In this document: piece by piece, positions 36,581-50,949 of the stretch
Layout of the letters: the number at the start of each line of letters is the position of its first letter
Position numbering within the stretch: the first letter of the stretch is position 1
Assembly: GCA_902573235.1 (NCBI GenBank)
Contig: CACGIZ010000002.1
Coordinates: 62,001 to 126,000, forward strand
Origin: an uncultured Pelagibacteraceae bacterium
GTDB taxonomy: Bacteria > Pseudomonadota > Alphaproteobacteria > Pelagibacterales > Pelagibacteraceae
DNA: 64,000 nt
Direction of reading: 5' to 3'
Position numbers and translations under genes: made by a program
The notes under the pieces: model-generated
Told to the model about the DNA's origin: nothing
The model's input: the letters and a program-made list of their open reading frames with translations, nothing else
The model's database searches: none

Positions 36581-37525
36581 TTAATTTAATTTTTTTGGAA
36601 CACGAAAAACAACGTTTTCTTTTATAATTTCCACTTCCTCTATAGTGACTGTAAATTTATTTTTCAATTCTTTAATGAAATTTTCAACAAGTATCTCAGG
36701 GGCAGAAGCACCGGATGAAATTCCTATAATATTTGAATTTTCAATTAAGTTGAATGGAATTTCACTTTGTGAATGGATCAGTACTGAGTTCTCACACCCT
36801 GATTTTTTAGCAACCTCAACAAGTCTTACCGAGTTAGATGAGTTTCGGCTACCGATAACAAAAAATAGATCACACTTTTTTGCAATGTTTTTAACAGCCA
36901 TTTGTCTATTGGTTGTCGCGTAACAAATATCTTCTTTTGCAGGTTCTTTAATATTTGAAAATTTTTCTCTAAGAATTGATATTATTTCTTTCGTGTCATC
37001 AACAGATAAAGTTGTTTGAGTAACGTAGGCAATTTTTTCAAAATTTTTTATATAATAATTCCTTGCTTCATCCTCATTTTGAATAAGGTCTATAGATCCT
37101 TTAGGTAATTGTCCCATTGTTCCAATTACCTCAGGATGATTTTCATGTCCTATTAAGATTAAATGGTATCCAGCCTTATAAAGATTTTCAGCCTCTCTAT
37201 GAACTTTAGAAACTAAGGGACATGTTGCATCAACATAAGTCATGTTGTAGTTTTTTGCATCTTGAGGAATTTTTTTTGGGACACCATGCGCAGAAAAAAT
37301 AACTGGTCTTGATTTATCCTCAATTTCTTCAAGCTCTTCTACAAATATTGCACCTTTATTTTTTAAGTCATCAACAACAAATTTATTATGTACTATTTCA
37401 TGTCTAACATAAACTGGGGAACCGTACTTTTGAATTGACTTTTCAACAATTTCAATTGCCCTTTCAACACCAGCACAAAATCCTCGGGGAGCAGATAACA
37501 ATATTTTAAGTTCTTTGTTTTTCAT
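36581..37525 (-). CDS. ispH: 4-hydroxy-3-methylbut-2-enyl diphosphate reductase
   Basis: A 314-residue iron-sulfur enzyme, the last step of the MEP pathway to IPP and DMAPP. The three cluster cysteines are in SAPRGFCAGVERAI, VDATCPLVSKVH and DICYATTNRQMAV. The substrate-binding His and Thr motifs (HEIVHNKFVV, GHENHPEV) are present. It overlaps blh by 20 bases, so the isoprenoid precursor gene appears to be read together with the carotenoid and retinal genes upstream. IspE of the same pathway is at 54 kb. Confidence 0.97.
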   Translation of the reverse strand: MKNKELKILLSAPRGFCAGVERAIEIVEKSIQKYGSPVYVRHEIVHNKFVVDDLKNKGAIFVEELEEIEDKSRPVIFSAHGVPKKIPQDAKNYNMTYVDATCPLVSKVHREAENLYKAGYHLILIGHENHPEVIGTMGQLPKGSIDLIQNEDEARNYYIKNFEKIAYVTQTTLSVDDTKEIISILREKFSNIKEPAKEDICYATTNRQMAVKNIAKKCDLFFVIGSRNSSNSVRLVEVAKKSGCENSVLIHSQSEIPFNLIENSNIIGISSGASAPEILVENFIKELKNKFTVTIEEVEIIKENVVFRVPKKLN

Positions 37526-38450
37526 TTTTATCTAAAAGATACTCGAGTAATATATGTGGAAATGTTAAAGACGCCAAACCTATAAATATGACTTTAATAA
37601 TTGAGTCGTTAAATTCATATTTAAAATTGAGTAAATAAATACCAATTAAACAAATAACAGCAGTTAATACAGTAAGTGGCATAGCCTTTTTAATAAAAAT
37701 CAACAAACCATTTTTCATATTATTGTTATCTAATTCATAAATTAATGTCATGCTATGTCTTACAGAATGTAAAAAGCAAAAATAAGCAGTAAATGCAATC
37801 AAAGGAGATAGATAGTAATTTAAAATTAATATTGAAAAATAATCAAAAAAAATAGAAAAATTTTTTAAATTAAATTTTTTAATAAACAAAATAATACTCG
37901 AAATAGAGCTTAAGATTACCCCAAAATCTATTAATCTATTATTCTCAATAAAACTTAAACTTGAATAAAAATTTTCATTATCAATTAATAATAATTTAAA
38001 TATTTCAATGGTTTCTTCAAAATGAAAATACAATGGTGCCAAAATAACAAGAGACCCTTTTAGGAAATACAATATACCCATAAAGTTTGAATCATAATTA
38101 TGTAAAAATTGTGTATCCTCTTTACCAAAATGATACGAGGCAACTAATAGAAATATTATTAACAAGATAGATGGTGCTAAAACCCAAAGTGTTATAACAA
38201 TTACAGCTATTAAGATGTATGAAATATAAAATAAAGTCATATTTTCAATTTTAAAAATCTTTATAAGTTTCCCACCTTTGACATGATCCAAAGATCCATG
38301 TGATACACCAATGATTAAAATCAAAAATAAACAAAATAATGGTGATAATATAAAGTTGTTTAATTTAAATAGTATTAAAGAAAAAATGTTACAGAATAAA
38401 AAAAAAATAAAAGAATGATTAAGATTTACTTTTTTTAGGTTCATATTCAT
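37506..38450 (-). CDS. blh: Brp/Blh-type beta-carotene 15,15'-dioxygenase
   Basis: A 314-residue integral membrane protein, with about eight helices, that cleaves beta-carotene into two retinals. The presumed iron-binding histidines lie in GVSHGSLDHVKGG, SYHFGKEDTQF and CFLHSVRHSMTLI, the conserved Brp/Blh pattern. Retinal is the chromophore of proteorhodopsin. It follows crtY after six bases and overlaps ispH by 20. The start could be Met1 or Met3 (MNMNLKK); the choice does not change the domain. No rhodopsin gene lies in this window. Confidence 0.92.
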   Translation of the reverse strand: MNMNLKKVNLNHSFIFFLFCNIFSLILFKLNNFILSPLFCLFLILIIGVSHGSLDHVKGGKLIKIFKIENMTLFYISYILIAVIVITLWVLAPSILLIIFLLVASYHFGKEDTQFLHNYDSNFMGILYFLKGSLVILAPLYFHFEETIEIFKLLLIDNENFYSSLSFIENNRLIDFGVILSSISSIILFIKKFNLKNFSIFFDYFSILILNYYLSPLIAFTAYFCFLHSVRHSMTLIYELDNNNMKNGLLIFIKKAMPLTVLTAVICLIGIYLLNFKYEFNDSIIKVIFIGLASLTFPHILLEYLLDKNEKQRT

Positions 38451-38456
38451 TCGGGT

Positions 38457-39524
38457 TTAATAAAATAAAGCTTTAATAAAAATCCATTTTGGCATTTTTA
38501 AAATTATAGTCAAATCTTCAAGAAAATTACTCTTATTGGACAAAAATTTGATAATTGTTTTAGGTGAGTTTTGAAACATTTTAAAAAAAATTTCTGACAT
38601 TTTCTTTGGGTGTTTTTCAAGAACACGTAAAAATATTTCATCCAAAAATTGATATTTTTTATTTATTTCAAATTTTTTAGTATTATGAATACTTTCAATA
38701 TTTTTTCTAATATATTTACTATGTTCTTGTATATTTAAAAAAGTATATCCAGTGCTTAGTCTTGTCATACCACCAGCAGTTCCAATATTTATCTTATTTT
38801 TTTCTTTTTCATACAATGGATAGAAGAGGGGAATTGCACCTTCCTCTCTGTATGTGATTTCGTAATCTTTAATTTTAAGATGCTTATCAATGTAATCTTT
38901 AATTTGTTTATCATAGTCTTTTTGAGAGTTGTCATTCATTTTTGAAAGCCAAGTAGTCTCAACTAGAGCCTTATTTTTTGAGTAGGGAAGTGTATAAAAA
39001 AAATGAACACTATCTCTTTGTTCGCAATCAAAGTCCATCAAATTAAAAATTTCATTGTCAAAATAATTCGTTTTGGTTTCAATTTCTACACCACAAAAAT
39101 GTTGCCAAAGATTAAGATGATTTTTTTTTATATTCGATACGCTATTGAAGATAAATGAATTTCTTGTATTGATCTCTTTTGTATCTTTATAGAAATAAAT
39201 ATTTTTATTCTTTTTAAGTTTATTATTTATTTTTTCATAAAATAAACCACTATCAATACTTTGGTATGGATAATCTTTACATTCTAAATGATTGGTTTTA
39301 CCTGGAATGTTGATTGAAAAATTTTGCCAATTTTTTTTAACGCAATCATCAAAATTGTGGGGCACTACTTTCCAGAAAGACCATGTTTTATCCCTTTTAT
39401 ATTCTAGTCTTGGTTCAACAATAGCCAAAGTTTTATCTTTTAATTTTTCATTGATTTCTAATTCATATGCAAGTGATAAACCGGCACAACCACCACCAAT
39501 AATAATATAATCAAATTCTTTCAT
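38457..39524 (-). CDS. crtY: Lycopene beta-cyclase (CrtY type)
   Basis: A 355-residue FAD-dependent cyclase that turns lycopene into beta-carotene. It has the N-terminal dinucleotide-binding motif YIIIGGGCAGLSLAYEL, the CrtY motif RDKTWSFWK, and the later GTAGGMTRLSTGYTF segment that matches the conserved G.aGG...p.tGY motif. It overlaps crtB by 14 bases and precedes blh, giving the order crtI-crtB-crtY-blh. The organism can therefore go from phytoene to retinal with genes in one block, given geranylgeranyl diphosphate from elsewhere. Confidence 0.93.
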   Translation of the reverse strand: MKEFDYIIIGGGCAGLSLAYELEINEKLKDKTLAIVEPRLEYKRDKTWSFWKVVPHNFDDCVKKNWQNFSINIPGKTNHLECKDYPYQSIDSGLFYEKINNKLKKNKNIYFYKDTKEINTRNSFIFNSVSNIKKNHLNLWQHFCGVEIETKTNYFDNEIFNLMDFDCEQRDSVHFFYTLPYSKNKALVETTWLSKMNDNSQKDYDKQIKDYIDKHLKIKDYEITYREEGAIPLFYPLYEKEKNKINIGTAGGMTRLSTGYTFLNIQEHSKYIRKNIESIHNTKKFEINKKYQFLDEIFLRVLEKHPKKMSEIFFKMFQNSPKTIIKFLSNKSNFLEDLTIILKMPKWIFIKALFY

Positions 39525-40362
39525 CTAAATTAATTTCTTCATTTATCAAATTATGATCGTGTTTTATTTGTTCATCTTTTTTATAAACGAATGATAGTTT
39601 AATTAAGTCAATAATTGAAAGGAAAGTCTCCAAGACCTTTTCTGCATTAGAAACATATATTTTTCCTGAATTTTGATAGTCACTTAAGTTTTTTTTATTA
39701 AGAATTTTATGTCCTATTTTTCTATAGACTCTTCTTGCAACTAAAATTGAAAAACGAAAACTTATTGGTATATCCTTAATTGAATAAAAAGAATTTTCAT
39801 AGAAAGTTTCAGCCAAATTAACAGTTGATGAAATTTCTTCGAAATTTTTGTCTATGTAAGAACGATTATTTTTAAAATCCTCTATCACATCTCTTGATAT
39901 ATTTGTAAGTTGCATAGCTATTCCAAGATCGATAGCTGATTTTAGTGAACTTTTTTTGCTTACTCTTAAAATTTTTGCCATCATTAACCCAACTGTTCCA
40001 GCCACTCTGTATGAATAAATTAGCAAATCTTTTCTTGAATTTAATTTAACACTTTCTTTTATGTCTGATTTAATCCCAATCAATAAATCGTGAACAATCT
40101 TTGAAGATATATTGAATTCCTCAATGAGATCCCACATATTTTTGATAATAGGATTATCAAAGTTTTTTTGATTAAAATCTTTCTCAAATTGATTAAATTT
40201 TTTTTCTTTATTTTCAATCTTCTCTTCATCATCAGCTAAGTTGTCTGCAACTCTGCAAAAATCGTATAAAGCTGAGCATTTATTAAGTGTTTTTTTTGGT
40301 AAAAAAAAACCAGCCCAACTAAATGATTTAGCATAAACAGACAAGTAACTATTGTTAGACAT
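39511..40362 (-). CDS. crtB: Phytoene synthase
   Basis: A 283-residue head-to-head prenyl synthase that condenses two geranylgeranyl diphosphates. The first aspartate-rich motif is CRVADNLADDEEK; the second is TNISRDVIEDFKNNRSY. Both bind magnesium-diphosphate and are the family's signature. It begins MSNNSYLSVYAKSFSWAGFFLP, as usual for CrtB. It shares one base with crtI upstream. No GGPP synthase (crtE) gene is in the window. Confidence 0.94.
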   Translation of the reverse strand: MSNNSYLSVYAKSFSWAGFFLPKKTLNKCSALYDFCRVADNLADDEEKIENKEKKFNQFEKDFNQKNFDNPIIKNMWDLIEEFNISSKIVHDLLIGIKSDIKESVKLNSRKDLLIYSYRVAGTVGLMMAKILRVSKKSSLKSAIDLGIAMQLTNISRDVIEDFKNNRSYIDKNFEEISSTVNLAETFYENSFYSIKDIPISFRFSILVARRVYRKIGHKILNKKNLSDYQNSGKIYVSNAEKVLETFLSIIDLIKLSFVYKKDEQIKHDHNLINEEINLDERI

Positions 40363-41822
40363 TATAAGATTTTATCTAAAACTTTTGCTGATGAAAGAAC
40401 GCCGGGGACACCAGCGCCTGGGTGAGTACCTGCACCTACAAAATAAAGCCCTTTATAAATCTCAGATTTGTTATGGAATCTAAAATAAGCTGATTGAGAA
40501 AATTTTGGTTGAACTGAAAAACCCGAACCATACTTGGTGTTTAAATCTTTTTCAAAGTAATCCGGGGTTAAATAAAAGTCCTCAACAATATTTTCTTTAA
40601 GATTAGGCATTAAATCATTTTGCATTTTATTGATTACTAAATTTTTCATTTTTTCTCCCTCTACAGACCAATTAATTTTTGATTGATTATTTGGAACAGG
40701 CACAAGAACATAAAAACAATCGTTTCCTTCAGGTGCCATAGATTTATCAGTTGAAGATGGTCTGTGTAAATAATAACTAATATCATCATTTAACTTTTTA
40801 TTATTAAATATATCATCTAGATGTTCTTTGTATTTGTTGCCAAACTTAATTGTATGATGCTCTACATTTTCATATTTTACTTTAGTACCAAAGTAATAAA
40901 CAAATAATCCCATTGAATATTCCATTCGATTTTTTTTCCATTTAAAAAGAAAAGAGTTATTTGTGTTTCCATTTAACATTTTTTCATAAACAGCAGGTGG
41001 GTCTGCATTACAAATGACATAATTAGATTGTAATATAGTTTGATCGCTAAGTTGAACACCAGTTATTCTTTTTTTATCTGAAATTATTTTTGTTACTTCA
41101 TGACCTTTGATTATTTTTATTCCTTCCTCATCCATTAATCTCTCAAACCCTTTTATGATATTTCCAGTTCCTCCCATCGAATAATGTATTCCCCATTTTT
41201 TTTCTAAATATAAAATTAATCCATAAATTGATGTTGTTGTAAAAGGATTGCCCCCAACAAGTAATGGGTGCATACTTAACATTCTTCTCAATTTTTCATT
41301 TTTTACATATGATGAAACCAATGAATAAACTGACTTGTAGCTTTTTAGTTTTAAAAGAGCTGGTAATTGTTGCGCCATTACTAATGGTCTATCGAATGGC
41401 ACATCAGCTAGTTCAGTAAAACCTTTATCAAAAATTTTTTTAGTAAAATTTACTAATTTTTCGTAGCCCTCAACATCATTCTTATTTAGTTTCTCAATTT
41501 GTCTTTTCATTTCTTGCTCATCGCCTGAATAATTAAACTTAGTTTTGTCCTCAAAGATAAACTGGTACCAAACTTTAAGAGGTGTTAGCTCAATGTAATT
41601 TTTTGGGTCTTTTTTAAATAGTTCAAATAATTCATTAATAAGATATGGAGCAGTAATTACTGTTGGGCCACCATCATATATAAACCCATTCTTCTTAAAA
41701 ACACGTGCTCTCCCACCGAGGTCTGGATGTTTCTCGATTAATGTAACTTTGTGCCCTTTAGCTTTTAGCCGGAGTGCCGCTGCTATACCACCAAATCCAG
41801 ACCCAATTACAATAGAGTTCAT
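40362..41822 (-). CDS. crtI: Phytoene desaturase (CrtI type)
   Basis: A 486-residue FAD enzyme that converts phytoene to lycopene in four desaturations. The N-terminal FAD motif is VIGSGFGGIAAALRLKAKG, followed by KHPDLGGRARVF and YDGGPTVITAPYL. The C-terminal signature is YFVGAGTHPGAGVPGVLSSAK, typical of bacterial CrtI. It starts 39 bases after the atpF stop on the same strand. That gap has no hairpin terminator; a weak promoter is possible but not clear. Confidence 0.95.
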   Translation of the reverse strand: MNSIVIGSGFGGIAAALRLKAKGHKVTLIEKHPDLGGRARVFKKNGFIYDGGPTVITAPYLINELFELFKKDPKNYIELTPLKVWYQFIFEDKTKFNYSGDEQEMKRQIEKLNKNDVEGYEKLVNFTKKIFDKGFTELADVPFDRPLVMAQQLPALLKLKSYKSVYSLVSSYVKNEKLRRMLSMHPLLVGGNPFTTTSIYGLILYLEKKWGIHYSMGGTGNIIKGFERLMDEEGIKIIKGHEVTKIISDKKRITGVQLSDQTILQSNYVICNADPPAVYEKMLNGNTNNSFLFKWKKNRMEYSMGLFVYYFGTKVKYENVEHHTIKFGNKYKEHLDDIFNNKKLNDDISYYLHRPSSTDKSMAPEGNDCFYVLVPVPNNQSKINWSVEGEKMKNLVINKMQNDLMPNLKENIVEDFYLTPDYFEKDLNTKYGSGFSVQPKFSQSAYFRFHNKSEIYKGLYFVGAGTHPGAGVPGVLSSAKVLDKIL

Positions 41823-44224: not shown

Positions 44225-46621
44225 TTAGGCAACCATACTTTCTGCTTTTTGTAAATCTACAGCAACTAACTGACTAATTCCTTTTTCGGGCATGGTAACA
44301 CCATAAAGTCTATTCATTTTAGACATGGTTAAAGCATGGTGAGTAACAATTATAAATTTTGTATTGGTAATTTTTGTGAGTTCATCTAGCAAGTTACAAA
44401 ATCTAGTAACATTAGCATCATCTAATGGAGCATCTACTTCATCAAGAACACATATAGGTGATGGGTTAGTTAAAAAAACCGCAAAGATTAGAGATAGCGC
44501 CGTTAAAGCTTGCTCTCCACCAGATAACAAAGTAATTGATTGAAGTCTTTTACCAGGAGGACTAACTAACATTTCCAAGCCTGCTTCTAGGGGATCATCA
44601 GAATCTACCAATTCTAATTTTGCGTTACCACCGTTGAATAATTTTGTGTAAACTTCATTAAATTTTCTATTAACTTTTTCAAAAGCATCAATTAATCTCT
44701 CTCTCCCTTTTTGGTTTAATTCATTGATACTATCTTTTAACTTTATTATTGCTGTAACTAAATCTGTTCTGTCTTGCTCCATTTTTCTTATTTCTGTTTC
44801 ATATTTATTTGTTTCTTCATCAGCTTTTAAATTTACAGATCCTAATTTTTCTCTTTCTTGTTTTTTTTTATCGAGTAAATCCTCTTGATTTACTGCATCT
44901 GGAAGTTCTTCTTTTCCAAATAAATTTGAATTTTCTAAAATATTATCCTCGTTTAAATTTAATTCTGAATTAATTCTATCTACTAAATCCATTTTCCTTT
45001 TTTTTAGTCCTTCAATCGTTGCACTCGAGCTTGCTTTTCTTTCACGTATTTGTATCGATTGTTCTTGAATGTTGTTTAATTCAGATCTAAGTGTCTCAAT
45101 TTTTTCATCAGTTTCATTTATGATTAAATCATTGTCATTTTTTTCTTTTTCAGAAATTCTCAACCCCTCAGAAATTTGACCTTTTTTTTCTGCTTGTAAT
45201 TTTGGTTGATTATCCAATTTTTCTAATTGTAGATTTAATTTCTTTTTTCTCTCAGTTAATTCAGAAACCATTTTTTCAGAGCTTGATAATAAATTTTTCC
45301 AACTTTCTATTTCATTATCTATTATATTTATTCTCTCATTCCTTTTGACAGATTCTTTTTTTATATTTTGGTTTTTACTATAGCTGTCGGCATATTCTTC
45401 GATTACAGTTTTAAAATTTTCAAGAACATCAATCGCTTGATTATTTTTTTGTGAATTGATTAATTCTTTAATTTTATCTATTTCTAAATTTAATTGATTT
45501 TTTGATTTATTTAAATCTTCATTAGATTTTTTTTCTGTTTCATAATATTTTGAGTCAACTTCAATTAGATCATTCTTTTCTTCCTTAAGTCTTTTTTCAT
45601 TAGAATTTGCGTCAATTACTATTCCTTTCTCTCTACTAATATCATCTTCTAATGTTTGAATTGAGGATTTTATATCTTTTATCTGATCTTGAATTCTTGT
45701 GTTCTCTTCATCTAAACCCTGGAGTTCTAAATTAAGTCTTTGAATTGTAGACAAATTTTCAATATTTTTTTCTCTTAATGGTGTTACTTTGTCTGTCTCG
45801 GATTTTATCAAACTTTCTATCTCAAAAATTTTATTGTTAAAACCACTTACCTCTCCTTCAGCTTCTGTATTTATTTCGTTTTCAACTCTAATTTCTTTGT
45901 CAATCTCCGTTAATTTTAAGTAATATAAACCAGCCTCAATTTTTTTTATATCATCAGAAATATTTTTATATTTGGTAGCTTCTTCAGCCTGTTTTTGTAA
46001 ATTAGCCAATTGTTTTTCCTGTTGTCTTCTTAGTTCGTCTGCTCTTTTAAGATTATTTTCTGCAGCATTTAATCTTAATTCAGCCTCATGTCTTCTTACG
46101 TGTAGACCAGAAATTCCAGCTGCTTCCTCTAAAATTGCTCTTCTATCAGTTGGTTTCGCTGTAACTAATGCTCCGATACGACCTTGGCTAATCATTGAAG
46201 GAGAGTGAGCTCCTGTAGATAAATCAGCAAAAAACATTTGGGCATCTCTAGCTCTAACTTCTTTGTCATTCATGTAAAATTTTGAACCTTTATCCTTCTC
46301 AATTTTACGTCTTACATTTACCTCACTTTGTTCTCTGAATTGAATTGGACCTTCATTATTTTTATTTTCCACTGTTACAGAAACTTCAGCAATATTTTTA
46401 GATGGTTTATTCGAGGTACCAGAAAAAATAACATCCTCCATGCCAGACCCTCTCATGCTTTTAGCTGAGGTTTCTCCCATTACCCACCTAAGGGACTCAA
46501 CAATGTTTGATTTCCCACAACCATTTGGACCGACTATACCTGTTAAACCTTCCTCAATTAGGAAATTCGTTTTATCAGCAAAAGATTTAAATCCATTAAG
46601 TTGGATTTTTTTAAACTCCAT
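44225..46621 (-). CDS. smc: Chromosome segregation ATPase SMC, short form without a recognisable hinge
   Basis: A 798-residue SMC protein, against about 1,150-1,200 in most bacteria. The N-terminal head has Walker A GPNGCGKSN (residues 31-39). The C-terminal head has the signature LLSGGEQALTAL (from about 698) and Walker B ICVLDEVDAPLDD (from about 723). Between them lie about 470 residues of charged coiled coil. Bacterial SMC normally has a globular hinge of about 150 residues in the middle. Here the midpoint (about residues 390-420, NQAIDVLENFKTVIEEY) shows only helical sequence and no hinge glycines. The frame is continuous and both heads are intact, so it is not a pseudogene. It lies between a DsbA-like gene (8-base gap) and atpI (15-base gap). 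ScpA/ScpB are not in this window. Confidence 0.93.
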   Translation of the reverse strand: MEFKKIQLNGFKSFADKTNFLIEEGLTGIVGPNGCGKSNIVESLRWVMGETSAKSMRGSGMEDVIFSGTSNKPSKNIAEVSVTVENKNNEGPIQFREQSEVNVRRKIEKDKGSKFYMNDKEVRARDAQMFFADLSTGAHSPSMISQGRIGALVTAKPTDRRAILEEAAGISGLHVRRHEAELRLNAAENNLKRADELRRQQEKQLANLQKQAEEATKYKNISDDIKKIEAGLYYLKLTEIDKEIRVENEINTEAEGEVSGFNNKIFEIESLIKSETDKVTPLREKNIENLSTIQRLNLELQGLDEENTRIQDQIKDIKSSIQTLEDDISREKGIVIDANSNEKRLKEEKNDLIEVDSKYYETEKKSNEDLNKSKNQLNLEIDKIKELINSQKNNQAIDVLENFKTVIEEYADSYSKNQNIKKESVKRNERINIIDNEIESWKNLLSSSEKMVSELTERKKKLNLQLEKLDNQPKLQAEKKGQISEGLRISEKEKNDNDLIINETDEKIETLRSELNNIQEQSIQIRERKASSSATIEGLKKRKMDLVDRINSELNLNEDNILENSNLFGKEELPDAVNQEDLLDKKKQEREKLGSVNLKADEETNKYETEIRKMEQDRTDLVTAIIKLKDSINELNQKGRERLIDAFEKVNRKFNEVYTKLFNGGNAKLELVDSDDPLEAGLEMLVSPPGKRLQSITLLSGGEQALTALSLIFAVFLTNPSPICVLDEVDAPLDDANVTRFCNLLDELTKITNTKFIIVTHHALTMSKMNRLYGVTMPEKGISQLVAVDLQKAESMVA

Positions 46622-46629
46622 AAATTAAC

Positions 46630-47205
46630 TTATATCAGTTTTTCTAGAGTTTTTTTTAAATTTTTATAATTTAGTGATTTTTCAAACTTTTCATTATTGA
46701 TTATTATCGTAGGAGTAGCATTCACTTTGAAGTTTTTAGTGCCTTCGACTCGATCATTTAAAATAAAGTCTTCAATAACTTTGTTATTTAAACACTCCTC
46801 AAAGTTTATGTTAAATCCTTGATTTTTTACAAATAATTTTAGATTATTATTTACCTCTTCGATTGTACTACCTTTTACCCAATCTTGTTGATTGAAATAT
46901 AAACTTTCTAAAATTTCTAAACTTTGGTCTTTTTTACATTGGGCAATTTTCGCAGCATTAAGGGCTGCAATATCTAATGGGAAGTGTCTGAATTCTAATT
47001 TTACAAGACCAGTATCAATAAAATCTTTTTTTAGCTTTGGATAAACAATTTTATGGAAATCAGCACAATGACTGCACGTTAAAGACTCATAAGCAATTAT
47101 TGTTATTTTTGCATTTTCATTTCCTGAAAATATACGATTAGTTTCAGCATTTACATTTAAAGTGATACCAGTAAGAATGAGTATTAATAAGTAAATTTTT
47201 TTCAT
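46630..47205 (-). CDS. DsbA-family thiol:disulfide oxidoreductase
   Basis: A 191-residue periplasmic thioredoxin-fold protein. A signal peptide (MKKIYLLILILTGITLNVNA) is followed by YESLTCSHCADF with active-site Cys44 and Cys47, the FRHFPLDIAALNAA helix, and the cis-proline region NATPTIIIN. CSHC with the large helical insert fits the DsbA/BdbD/DsbG-like group used for disulfide formation or related thiol chemistry. It overlaps the DUF721 gene by four bases and smc follows after eight. Confidence 0.9.
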   Translation of the reverse strand: MKKIYLLILILTGITLNVNAETNRIFSGNENAKITIIAYESLTCSHCADFHKIVYPKLKKDFIDTGLVKLEFRHFPLDIAALNAAKIAQCKKDQSLEILESLYFNQQDWVKGSTIEEVNNNLKLFVKNQGFNINFEECLNNKVIEDFILNDRVEGTKNFKVNATPTIIINNEKFEKSLNYKNLKKTLEKLI

Positions 47206-47693
47206 TTTTCTTTAAATACTTTAGTCAATTCTAATAATGATTTTTTTATTTTTTCATTTTTAACATTATTTATTTGATTTTGATGTTTGTTTTTTGTCAC
47301 ATTATTTTTAAAACTTTTTGAAACCTCTGTTGAAATTTTTTGATCTTCTTCAAAGCTAGTAAATTTAATTTTTTCTACGACTGTTTTTCCAAAAAAAATA
47401 TTCATCCTATCCATAATCTCCTTTTTTGAATATTCTAAGTCTACCTCATGACCTCTTTTTACCATTACCAATAATGTGCTTACTCCAAATTTATTTGAAT
47501 TTTTAAATGATTTTGGATAACAAACTTTAAAAAGAGTTTGTCCTGCTATGTGCTTCCAATTGTTTAATGTTTCTGAATAAACTTCACCTCTATTATTTAT
47601 AACTTTTTTGATATTTTTTGGTAAAGTGTCCTTAAGAGATCTTAAACCTTGAATGGTGCCCCATCTCTGCTTAGTATTATTTTTAAATTGCAT
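47202..47693 (-). CDS. DciA-like DUF721 protein
   Basis: A 163-residue DUF721 protein. The conserved N-terminal half has GLRSLKDTLPKNIKKVINN, LNNWKHIAGQTLFKVCYP and a VMVKRGHEVDLEYSKKEIMDRMN segment. The family includes DciA, the replicative-helicase loader used by bacteria that lack DnaC, so a role with DnaB is likely but not shown. The C-terminal third is Lys/Asn-rich and poorly structured. The start codon directly abuts the divergent mutY start (CATATG), leaving no intergenic base between the two genes. Confidence 0.78.
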   Translation of the reverse strand: MQFKNNTKQRWGTIQGLRSLKDTLPKNIKKVINNRGEVYSETLNNWKHIAGQTLFKVCYPKSFKNSNKFGVSTLLVMVKRGHEVDLEYSKKEIMDRMNIFFGKTVVEKIKFTSFEEDQKISTEVSKSFKNNVTKNKHQNQINNVKNEKIKKSLLELTKVFKEK

Positions 47694-48674
47694 ATGAAGG
47701 AAAAGATAATAACAAAAAAAATTCTTAAATGGTATGATTTAAATAAAAGATCTTTACCTTGGCGGAAAAAAGTTTCTGTAGAAAAAAAACAATATTACAC
47801 ATTAATTAGTGAGTTTATGTTACAACAAACCCAAGTTATAACTGTAATTCCTTTTTTTAATAGGTTTATTAAAAATTTACCATCTATAAATTCTCTTGCA
47901 AAAGTTGGTGAGAAAAAACTTATAAAACTTTGGGAAGGTCTTGGATACTATTCTAGAGCAAGAAATTTAAAAAAATCTGCGCAAGTTATTTTAAAAAATT
48001 TTGATGGAAAATTACCTGACAATTTTGAAGATTTAATTACTCTACCTGGTATTGGGAATTATACTGCAAATGCAATTTTAGCTATTGCATTTAACAAACC
48101 ATATATTCCTATGGACGGAAATATTGAAAGAGTTTTAAAAAGATATCTTTATTTAAAGAAAGATAAAGAAATTCAAAAGGATTACTTGTTTCAAAGGAAA
48201 GTTATATTTGGAAAAACTTTAAGATCTAGTGATTATGCTCAAGCTTTAATGGAATTAGGAGCATTGATATGCAAACCAAACAATCCAAAATGTGATCAGT
48301 GTCCAATTATAAAAAATTGTAAATCTTATAAAAAGAAAGATTTTAGTTTAATAAAGAATATTAAGAAAAATAAAGATAAATATTTTGTGCTAAAAGTTTA
48401 CAAAAAAAATCAAAGGTATTTACTGATTAAAAATACAAAATTTAATTTTTTAAAAAATTTGACTATCTTTCCTATGGAAGAATTATCTAATCCTAAAAAT
48501 TTTAAGGAAAATTTAAATTTTAAAATGTCTAATATGAATATGAATATAAAAATTGAGTATTCAAATGATAATAAAAAATTTCCTTATTCATATTGGGTAG
48601 ATGGAACAAAAATGAATAGTTATATGCTACCATCATTTACGAAAAAAATTGTTCAATACTTAGAGAAAAATTGA
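47694..48674 (+). CDS. mutY: A/G-specific adenine DNA glycosylase MutY
   Basis: I chose the ATG at 47694 (MKEKIITKKILKWYDLNKRSLPWR), because family members begin here and an upstream in-frame ATG would lie inside the divergent gene. That gives 326 residues. It removes adenine mispaired with 8-oxoguanine. Motifs are SEFMLQQTQVITVIPFF with the catalytic Glu, the helix-hairpin-helix LPGIGNYTANAIL with its catalytic aspartate in PMDGNIERVLKR, and the cluster cysteines in CKPNNPKCDQCPIIKNC. The C-terminal 8-oxoG-recognition (NUDIX-like) domain is shortened. Its stop overlaps the next start by four bases. Confidence 0.93.
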   Translation: MKEKIITKKILKWYDLNKRSLPWRKKVSVEKKQYYTLISEFMLQQTQVITVIPFFNRFIKNLPSINSLAKVGEKKLIKLWEGLGYYSRARNLKKSAQVILKNFDGKLPDNFEDLITLPGIGNYTANAILAIAFNKPYIPMDGNIERVLKRYLYLKKDKEIQKDYLFQRKVIFGKTLRSSDYAQALMELGALICKPNNPKCDQCPIIKNCKSYKKKDFSLIKNIKKNKDKYFVLKVYKKNQRYLLIKNTKFNFLKNLTIFPMEELSNPKNFKENLNFKMSNMNMNIKIEYSNDNKKFPYSYWVDGTKMNSYMLPSFTKKIVQYLEKN

Positions 48675-49816
48675 TGAAAAAAATTGCTATTATTGGAGCT
48701 GGTATCTCTGGCTTATTTATTGCTAATTTATTTAAAAGAAGTTCAAATTATCAAATTGCACTTTATGAAAAGAGTTACTCAATAGATTTAGATGAGGGTT
48801 ATGGAATTCAATTATCGGTTAATAGTGTAAATCTTTTAAATCAAATTGGGTTTGATAAATTCAAAAATGATCAAAAATTCAATCCCGATATAATAAATTT
48901 TTATTCTATCAAAAGTTCAAATAAGATATGTCATTTAAAAATTTCTGATTTTAATACGGTAGATTGTAAGTATACCACTTTAAAAAGATCTGAATTAGTG
49001 AAATTTTTAAAAACAGATTTAGAAAACTTTATTCAAACTAATCACAACATTTCGAAGGTAGAGCAGCAAAATCAGAAGATCCAACTTACATTTGAAAATA
49101 ATGAAACCTCTGAATGTGATCATTTAATTATTTCTGACGGAGTTTTTTCGAAAAGTAAAAGTCTTATCTTAGAGAGTCAAATTCCTCCAAGATACAATAA
49201 AACAATAGCTATTAGAGGAACATTGCCTTGTTCTCAAAAAATTGATTGTAGAAATATTTCATTATTTTTAGGACCAGATTTTCATTATGTAATTTATCCA
49301 GTAAATCAAAATAGAGATTTAAATTTCATAGCTATTATGAAATATAAACTTAATAAAGAAGAGCAAAAAAACCAATCATTATTTAATGATGGAAATTTTA
49401 TCAAAAGGGTTTTAGATAATGTTCCAATAGAAATGAGAGAATTTTTGGATGAAATTAAGAAATTAAAAATATTCCCAGTATTTGTAAGTGACAGTTTTTC
49501 TCAAACCAAAAATAATAACATGCATTTAATAGGTGATGCCTTTTTTGCCTTTCCTCCGTCATTTGCTCAAGGTGCTTCTCAGTCAATAGAGAGTGCATAC
49601 GAATTATTCCTTAGTATAGAAAATAACACCGAGAGTAATTTTTTAAGAAATAGAGTAAATAAAACAAGAATGGTAAATAACAGATCAAAGTTTAATCAAT
49701 TTGCATTCCATTTATCTAATCCTTTAACTAATTTCTTAAGAAACACTTTTTTAAAGAGATTGGTTAAAAATAAAAAATTTTTAGAAAATTATTTGGGAAA
49801 AATTTACAAAAATTAG
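48671..49816 (+). CDS. FAD-dependent monooxygenase, UbiH/salicylate hydroxylase-like
   Basis: A 381-residue class A flavin monooxygenase. The FAD-binding motif is AIIGAGISGLFIANLF, the DG motif is LIISDGVFSKSK, and the GD motif is LIGDAFFAFPPSFAQGASQSIESAYEL. These three mark aromatic-ring hydroxylases. Candidate roles are a ubiquinone hydroxylation step or oxidation of an aromatic compound; the sequence does not decide. It overlaps mutY by four bases, and its stop interlocks with the ccrM stop on the other strand. Confidence 0.82.
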   Translation: MMKKIAIIGAGISGLFIANLFKRSSNYQIALYEKSYSIDLDEGYGIQLSVNSVNLLNQIGFDKFKNDQKFNPDIINFYSIKSSNKICHLKISDFNTVDCKYTTLKRSELVKFLKTDLENFIQTNHNISKVEQQNQKIQLTFENNETSECDHLIISDGVFSKSKSLILESQIPPRYNKTIAIRGTLPCSQKIDCRNISLFLGPDFHYVIYPVNQNRDLNFIAIMKYKLNKEEQKNQSLFNDGNFIKRVLDNVPIEMREFLDEIKKLKIFPVFVSDSFSQTKNNNMHLIGDAFFAFPPSFAQGASQSIESAYELFLSIENNTESNFLRNRVNKTRMVNNRSKFNQFAFHLSNPLTNFLRNTFLKRLVKNKKFLENYLGKIYKN

Positions 49817-50883
49817 TTATTTGAAATTAATCTTTGTCTTAAATAATCAATGGGAACAGCCCGACCATTTAAATTATAGTGCCAATAAGTCCATCCATTA
49901 CAGCTTTCAGCACCCAAAATTGTAGCTGCTACTTTGTGAATTGAACCTTCTGTTTGATCGTGTTTAATACTGCCATCAGCCATGATTTTTGCGCTAATTT
50001 TCTTCTTATCATCGAAAATTGTTGTGCCTGGTTTAATTATTCCTAATTCAACTAATGAACCAAAAGGTATTCTTGGTTTAGATCTACCATTCTGGAGAGT
50101 GTCTAAATAATGATCTTCAATAGGCTTTGTTTTTTTTAATCTTTGTTCAGCGGCTTTAAAATATGATTTTTCTTTCTCAATACCATAATAATTTCTTCCC
50201 AATTTTTTAGCAACTGTTGCAGTTGTTCCAGATCCTAAAAAAGGATCTAAAACTAAATCATCTTTATTTGATGTTGCTAATAAAATCCTGTGAAGCAGAG
50301 CCTCTGGTTTTTGTGTAGAATGTACTTTTTTACCATTTTTTTTTAGTCTCTCTGGGCCGTTACAAATCGGCAGTTCCCAATTAGATCTCATTTGAAGGTC
50401 ATCATTTAAACACTTTAAGGATTGATAATTAAAAGTGTATTTTGATTTTTCAGATTTTGAGGCCCAAATTAAAGTTTCATGAGCATTGGTAAAACGAGTT
50501 CCTCTAAAATTTGGCATCGGATTTTTTTTATTCCAAATAACATCATTTAAAATCCAATAACCTAAATTTTGAATTGCTGTCCCAACCCTAAAAATATTGT
50601 GATAACTACCAATTACCCAAATAGCTCCATTCTTTTTTAAAATTCTTTTACATTCGCTTAACCATGAGTAAGTAAAATCATCATATTTTTTGAAATTTTC
50701 AAATTGATCCCATTTATCATTCACTGCACTAACTTTAGATCTATCCGGTCTTGTAAGTTCACTCTTAAGTTGTAGATTGTAAGGAGGGTCAGCAAAAATT
50801 AATTCAAAAGTCTCATCAGGGATTTTTTTTAATTCTTTTAAACTATCTCCGTTAATTAATTTATTTTTTAAGTTTAAATTCAT
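49813..50883 (-). CDS. ccrM: CcrM-type adenine DNA methyltransferase (GANTC)
   Basis: I chose the ATG at 50883 (MNLNLKNKLINGDSLKELKKIP), which aligns with the Caulobacter CcrM start; an in-frame ATG 14 codons upstream lacks family residues. The 356-residue protein has motif IV FADPPYNLQL (DPPY at 32-35) before motif I LDPFLGSGTTATVAKKLG, so it is a beta-class N6-adenine methyltransferase. The close match to CcrM through SYHNIFRVG and NAHETLIWASKS predicts GANTC methylation, used in alphaproteobacteria for cell-cycle control and repair. The C-terminal RAMA domain (about 272-350, ending CNGWTYWHY) is intact. No cognate restriction enzyme is nearby, so it is an orphan enzyme. Three GANTC sites lie just upstream. 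Confidence 0.95.
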   Translation of the reverse strand: MNLNLKNKLINGDSLKELKKIPDETFELIFADPPYNLQLKSELTRPDRSKVSAVNDKWDQFENFKKYDDFTYSWLSECKRILKKNGAIWVIGSYHNIFRVGTAIQNLGYWILNDVIWNKKNPMPNFRGTRFTNAHETLIWASKSEKSKYTFNYQSLKCLNDDLQMRSNWELPICNGPERLKKNGKKVHSTQKPEALLHRILLATSNKDDLVLDPFLGSGTTATVAKKLGRNYYGIEKEKSYFKAAEQRLKKTKPIEDHYLDTLQNGRSKPRIPFGSLVELGIIKPGTTIFDDKKKISAKIMADGSIKHDQTEGSIHKVAATILGAESCNGWTYWHYNLNGRAVPIDYLRQRLISNN

Positions 50884-50900
50884 TTTATAAAAACAAATTA

Positions 50901-50949
50901 GACTCCAAAAAGATTCTTGGGTCAACCTACGATTGAATTATTTGGATTC
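50901..50949. promoter_or_regulatory. Cluster of three GANTC sites upstream of ccrM
   Basis: GACTC at 50901-50905, GATTC at 50912-50916 and GATTC at 50945-50949 lie 18 to 66 bases before the ccrM ATG, in the 119-base gap after rnhB. In Caulobacter the ccrM leader has GANTC sites whose methylation lowers ccrM transcription. The sites are seen in sequence; a similar feedback here is inferred. The start at 50883 matters: with a longer start two sites would be in the coding region. Confidence 0.5.

Follow-up and report, generated by a model that had tools for sequence, protein, structure and literature searches.

An order-wide hinge-less SMC in SAR11 (Pelagibacterales), with a predicted helical hairpin in place of upper arms and hinge

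What joins two SMC proteins if the hinge between them appears to be missing? The question is raised by a gene in the window, i.e., the whole analysed stretch of 64,000 nucleotides from an uncultured Pelagibacteraceae bacterium. The initial annotation described the product as an SMC protein with complete Walker A, signature and Walker B motifs in a continuous frame, short arms and no recognisable hinge, and proposed a lineage-specific design, perhaps with a coiled-coil tip like that of MukB-like or Rad50-like proteins. The motif positions and the open reading frame (Table 1) confirm the first of these points. Against SMC_prok_B (TIGR02168), the protein scores 673.8 bits (cut-off 567.35) in two stretches, one of which relates protein residues 290-790 to profile positions 692-1181, and Pfam reports SMC_N. 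Within its own genome (1.05 Mb in 35 contigs, 75% complete), it is the sole match at E<=0.01; close sequence relatives are records named Pelagibacteraceae with 89% identity. For the comparisons below, we collected 80 related loci and left out L146, L147, L151, L161 and L167, in which the two ATPase motifs were not found together in one frame; L120 is clipped by a contig end (760 aa).

Table 1. Features of the smc gene and of its upstream neighbours in the window (residues refer to the 798-aa protein).
Feature	Position	Strand	Basis or remark
smc, 798 aa + stop	44225..46621	-	continuous ORF
N-terminal half-head, residues 1-170	46112..46621	-	motifs + AlphaFold2
Walker A, residues 31-38	46508-46531	-	motif
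Q-loop SQG, from residue 145	N-terminal half-head	-	motif
lower N-arm, residues 171-358	45548..46111	-	AlphaFold2 + arm homology
replacement apex, residues 359-410	45392..45547	-	AlphaFold2, arm homology, 11-sequence alignment
predicted apex turn, residues 390-392	45446-45454	-	AlphaFold2
lower C-arm + joint region, residues 411-640	44702..45391	-	AlphaFold2 + arm homology
C-terminal half-head, residues 641-798	44228..44701	-	motifs + AlphaFold2
signature LSGGE, residues 699-703	44513-44527	-	motif
Walker B CVLDEVD, residues 724-730	44432-44452	-	motif
H-loop, from residue 760	C-terminal half-head	-	motif
Thioredoxin_4 gene	46630..47205	-	directly upstream of smc
DciA gene	47202..47693	-	upstream of smc
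HhH-GPD glycosylase gene	47649..48674	+	upstream of smc

With regard to the hinge, the Pfam search gave no SMC_hinge (PF06470) match in the window SMC at E<=1, and none above the cut-off in any of 147 genomes of the order. The same model exceeds its cut-off in 10/14 control genomes (Caulobacter is not among the 10) and in only 71/190 genomes of the class. Given this weakness within the class, we rejected PF06470 alone as a hinge test and replaced it by profiles of alphaproteobacterial hinges. The first profile was built from 49 full-length alphaproteobacterial SMCs. Its score is at least 75 bits for 58/58 proteins longer than 1000 aa (49 of these are its training rows); two proteins of 960 and 983 aa reach 154 and 164 bits, respectively, and four of 864-865 aa reach 74-80 bits. 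With filters switched off, it scores above 0 bits in none of 104 hingeless proteins, i.e., 100 from Pelagibacterales and 4 from a group labelled f25, taken from two collections with same-genome repeats included. The second profile, based on a 22-row hinge alignment, finds a hinge in 113/181 class genomes at E<=0.001 and in 0/197 Pelagibacterales genomes at E<0.05. Two minor matches were taken as chance, namely a profile match in G011 (13.1 bits, E 0.083, 217-aa frame) and a PF06470 match below the cut-off at G000:C9:36845-37072 (17 bits, 239-aa frame).

Could the missing hinge reflect a damaged gene? The state of the window's own genome assembly would allow for an assembly deletion, a frameshift or a decaying gene. 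On the other hand, the short form aligns over residues 1-798 without stops and at equal length in at least 26 genomes of the window's genus (own genome included), one of which is a single contig (G003). Decay is also hard to reconcile with dN being below dS in every segment with computable dS (ratio at most about 0.5) and with Walker A, signature and Walker B being present in 103/103 hingeless proteins. Neither a frameshift nor a full-length SMC in close relatives was found. An assembly error is excluded for the 798-aa smc gene, and the probability of any such fault or decay is next to nil. A hinge that is kept but has diverged beyond sequence detection is very improbable as well. The long tips (857-881 aa forms and those of a group labelled f2) do carry 60-90 extra residues and thus space for a small domain. 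Yet only 52 residues are left in the window SMC, these are predicted helical, and so is the tip of the 857-aa form. Furthermore, profile-profile comparison of six tip groups with the hinge profiles yields probabilities of 0.05-0.31%, while the divergent 864-865 aa hinges, used as positive control, reach 99.5%. By eye, a W..GYDD.. stretch in the f2 tip had looked like a hinge remnant; it was rejected, since the 0.31% comparison aligned another part. Finally, the distal link might be provided by another protein, such as a hinge encoded as a subunit of its own or a clamp of unrelated origin. Nothing positive speaks for this apart from the incompleteness of the own genome, and the lack of a hinge-like gene at E<0.05 in the 197 order genomes (149 of them with a completeness of 90% or more) implies no visible transfer of the hinge to a different gene. 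We consider such a link very unlikely. The absence of a hinge, as initially annotated, therefore holds up: hinge HMM searches give no match, no hinge-like fold is predicted, and close relatives are alike.

To locate what was replaced, we compared SAR11 arm profiles with canonical SMCs (25 proteins shown). Residues 270-358 of the SAR11 SMC correspond to about 270-357 of the canonical alphaproteobacterial SMC, and residues 410-560 to about 760-912. That is, about 400 canonical residues (~358-760), comprising the upper N-arm, the hinge (about 507-631) and the upper C-arm, are represented by 52 residues. The arm profiles gave no meaningful match for L104 and only about 12 bits for the f25 N-arms. 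AlphaFold2 models of the 798-aa form (40-row alignment) show a helix over 258-389, the apex turn and a second helix over 393-470, with block pLDDT values of 82-89 over residues 351-450; the model has a mean of 75.9 and a pTM of 0.47, and values in parts of the heads fall under 60. For the 857-aa form, the tip is all-helical with a turn at 419-421 and an interruption at 445-447 (60-77 in the tip blocks, mean 73.0, pTM 0.40). The best 50 hits of a PDB fold search included chains of SMC, Smc5/6, Rad50 and MukB, which adds nothing about the tip. The apex is thus predicted to be a bare alpha-helical hairpin. Two antiparallel coiled-coil arms are present but short, as follows from arm homology and predicted helices, which agrees with the short arms of the initial annotation; its coiled-coil tip likewise fits the models of both forms, i.e., at the level of prediction. 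A Rad50-like zinc hook, in contrast, finds no counterpart, since a CxxC near the tip occurs in 0/40 short and 0/26 long forms. Nor is the likening to MukB apt, since MukB carries its own dimerising hinge.

The complete proteins collected from the window's genus come in two lengths only, 798 aa (n=40) and 857 aa (n=26). The constant tip length in 40/40 and 26/26 proteins follows from our having picked proteins of these two lengths, but no third length was seen among complete genus proteins. In an 11-sequence alignment, 29 residues on the N-terminal side of a conserved apex and 30 on its C-terminal side are missing from the short form, and such a paired difference is what an antiparallel hairpin demands. 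Tip length stays fixed while tip sequence varies: over 780 short-form pairs, the mean divergence is 50% in the tip compared to 23% in the arms. This is also seen for nonsynonymous changes in eight pairs (dN of 0.15-0.43 for tips, 0.06-0.20 for arms and 0.02-0.08 for heads, with synonymous sites near saturation), although the pair L001-L021 shows a dN of the tip below that of the arms. Short and long forms alternate on a quick tip-free tree with four changes, at least three of them by starred branches; its long branches are flagged. The most extreme pair, L109-L127, differs by 16% in the tip but by 36% in the arms, for which tip exchange by recombination is a likely reason. The alternating lengths and the similar tips of some distant pairs suggest tip swapping by recombination among the smc genes of the window's genus.

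Two features of the apex were considered with regard to function. A lone apical cysteine, about 12 residues past the apex, is found at position 432 in 26/26 long forms (e.g., L112), being the only cysteine outside the heads that all of these share, and at position 403 in 23/40 short forms. The window SMC carries F at this position and other short forms I, L or S; given these replacements, we rejected a redox or zinc role, and the site is more likely a packing position, judging from the residues it accepts. As a second feature, apical hydrophobic enrichment in the 857-aa form exceeds that of all windows off the apex, for widths 28 and 36 only, while in the 798-aa form 6-38 of 154-182 off-apex windows match it. 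As proof of a tip dimer, the enrichment is too weak in the 798-aa form and was not accepted.

The hinge-less protein is an order-wide trait. In Pelagibacterales, 136/147 genomes match the window SMC at E<=1e-20 (100/105 of good quality); 11 genomes, 5 of them of good quality, show no SMC match. Among the matches listed, complete open frames range from 799 to 891 aa and, for the window's genus, the short form is found in 26 genomes and the long form in 45 (857-864 aa frames), besides one truncated frame and four genomes without match. For other families, we compared by eye, and not exhaustively, the lists of genomes with SMC matches and with hinge matches. Those noted with a complete smc gene and no hinge match are the f25 genomes G169 and G300. 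G162, G190, G210 and G282 were rejected as hingeless because their SMC matches are partial and in small frames (274-541 aa), those of G162 and G190 being split over two contigs.

On a tree of the heads only (44 rows), Pelagibacterales form one clade (100/100), while f25 clusters with records named SP38 and MarineAlpha6 in a separate one (100/100); f25/SP38/MarineAlpha6 is a small-genome alphaproteobacterial group. Hinge status needs two changes on this tree, and the number is the same if trust is limited to the starred branches. The best reading of these sequences is that the hinge was lost twice, separately, in Pelagibacterales and in f25. It is not proof, since long branches meet (f25 with the HIMB59-like group, L104 with L106) and the bootstrap is not quite settled. 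Of the lineage specificity originally proposed, the order-wide trait remains, while exclusiveness does not, given the second hingeless alphaproteobacterial group and a published actinobacterial cluster (see below). Further variation was observed among the collected proteins. The hingeless SMCs of f25 (L098, L099, L153, L156; 803-817 aa) have an unrelated-looking tip. Those of f2 (L089-L094, L149, L150, L165) have a different, tryptophan-bearing tip that is hinge-unlike by profile comparison. Very long frames of 1523 and 1531 aa are found in L106 (G172) and G303, whose hinge matches are weaker (75-89 bits); a long-armed SMC with a channel-less hinge is mentioned for Acetobacter in PMC12647877.

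We also looked for the partners of an SMC complex. ScpA matches are found in 81/97 order genomes and ScpB above the cut-off in 83/97; in the own genome both genes are present, the look-up having been proposed in the initial annotation, and they are adjacent (G000:C12). ParB is found in 33/41 relatives and parS-like sites (at most 2 mismatches) in 36/41, a control pattern also occurring in 8/41; the own ParB gene and a one-mismatch parS site are about 1.4 kb apart. In the gene neighbourhood, the Thioredoxin_4 gene is also directly upstream of smc in the hinge-bearing L171 and L157, and L157 has an HhH-GPD gene in the place matching that of the window's, which we take to be MutY-like. For three further neighbours, two from L171 and one from L157, Pfam gave no family match. 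Given the conserved neighbourhood, the smc gene of the window most likely sits at the orthologous locus. On its other side, smc lies next to ATP synthase genes, which are in turn adjoined by a carotenoid/retinal cluster (37506-41822, minus strand) of beta-carotene dioxygenase, lycopene cyclase, phytoene synthase and an amine-oxidase-type desaturase. Another gene near smc (49813-50925, minus strand), only a few genes away, encodes an N6/N4 DNA methylase that carries a RAMA domain and is presumably CcrM-like.

How might such a protein work? We favour, with moderate confidence, that the housekeeping SMC of SAR11 is a natural core-only Smc-ScpAB motor that dimerises by its hairpin tips, its arms and the kleisin. 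The protein would descend from a normal alphaproteobacterial SMC that lost the upper arms and the hinge (canonical about 358-760), and a short alpha-helical hairpin, as modelled, would now join both lower arms. It presumably still acts as Smc-ScpAB and is loaded by ParB at parS; ATP at the heads and a ScpA bridge would hold two SMCs together. At the distal end, hairpin tips and arms would pack against each other and so take over from the hinge. Dimerisation would then work differently from that of canonical SMC, as the initial annotation proposed. By analogy, it may be the natural counterpart of an engineered core-only SMC motor, such that loop extrusion would be possible and the hinge gate absent. 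The apical hydrophobic positions count for a tip interface, clearly only in the 857-aa form. We counted against it that the tip is the fastest-evolving part, unlike a conserved interface, and against the core-only reading that the Wadjet core ring needed an artificial crosslink (PMC12647877).

In the chief rival to the core-only motor, the tip never dimerises: the hairpin merely caps the arms, and ATP-engaged heads together with the ScpA-ScpB bridge alone hold an open V rather than a ring. The high variability of the tip compared to the arms, the plain hairpin predicted by AlphaFold2 and the unremarkable apical enrichment of the 798-aa form all fit this picture. What makes us judge it rather unlikely is the strictly kept tip length of both forms, the conserved hydrophobic apical positions of the 857-aa form, and the closed ring that the engineered Wadjet core required (PMC12647877). 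More tentatively, the SAR11 motor might never stably dimerise distally, such that tips and arms meet transiently while heads and ScpAB close the ring. We think this rather unlikely as well; if true, it would mean that a natural bacterial condensin needs neither a permanent SMC dimer nor a hinge gate and that a streamlined genome can afford to lose hinge bypass. A recruitment to repair, i.e., a Rad50/SbcC-like ATPase that no longer acts as condensin, would account for the overall shape of a head with a hinge-free antiparallel coil. It is extremely improbable given the score for SMC_prok_B compared to at most 52.5 bits for Rad50 models, the missing CxxC near the tip, the presence of ScpA, ScpB and ParB, and the kept smc neighbourhood.

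The core-only reading touches a current question: engineered proteins are being used to find out if loop extrusion needs the hinge, or if the hinge serves only to dimerise and to bypass obstacles (PMC12647877, PMC5344682). In SAR11, an order of bacteria very abundant in the ocean, evolution seems to have run the hinge-removal experiment itself, while the loader (ParB, parS) and the kleisin subunits are kept. Neighbouring lineages add a short-armed, hinge-bearing form and an apparently separate hinge loss. Together, they offer natural, expressible proteins for asking what joins two hinge-free SMCs and what the loss of hinge bypass costs. Our literature search, to which most subscription journals are outside, found no paper on a hinge-less SMC of SAR11. 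A 2017 arm-length survey began from hinge alignments, so hinge-less proteins would be missed there. A hinge-less SMC as such is already in print (PMC12153180).

Finally, we compare the protein with known systems. By its sequence, the SAR11 protein is an SMC by descent, sharing with canonical alphaproteobacterial Smc (TIGR02168) the head motifs, the lower arms, ScpA/ScpB and the Thioredoxin_4 gene beside smc. Canonical Smc keeps the roughly 400 residues of upper arms and hinge for which SAR11 has 52, and since no hinge was found when tested for, we file the protein as a hinge-less variant rather than as a canonical SMC. Similar in layout is the 864-865 aa group (L097, L157-L159), which we take to be HIMB59-like and which combines very short arms with a divergent hinge. 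Its arms are shortened at similar points (the N-arm match ends at about 355-360 and the C-arm match starts at 493), but in contrast to SAR11 it keeps a recognisable hinge at about 369-481. The MukB family is not matched by the window SMC in Pfam at E<=1, and PF04310 matches 1/37 aligned relatives at E 0.063.

Sussfeld et al. (2025, PMC12153180) describe a hinge-less SMC from an ocean cluster near the base of the actinobacterial sequences, assigned to Actinomycetes. It likewise combines an SMC head, an antiparallel coil, no hinge, no CxxC and a marine origin, and we liken the two by description; that cluster is assigned to Actinomycetes while the SAR11 SMC belongs to Pelagibacterales, and neither 'SAR11' nor 'Pelagibacter' occurs in the main text of PMC12153180. 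In B. subtilis, a Rad50 zinc hook replaces the hinge in a functional Smc chimera, and arms of 253-267 aa function (PMC5344682). This chimera resembles the SAR11 SMC in its non-hinge apex, but its mode of dimerisation is known, while the SAR11 tips have no CxxC. In the core-only JetC of Wadjet, the segment from elbow to hinge (aa 348-686) is replaced by a 9-residue linker, and with a crosslink-closed ring the core still cleaves plasmid DNA while it cannot bypass obstacles (PMC12647877). JetC belongs to another SMC family, and this construct is artificial, with a flexible linker and an engineered disulfide closure; as in the SAR11 SMC, the outer arm and the hinge are gone and the heads and lower arms remain.
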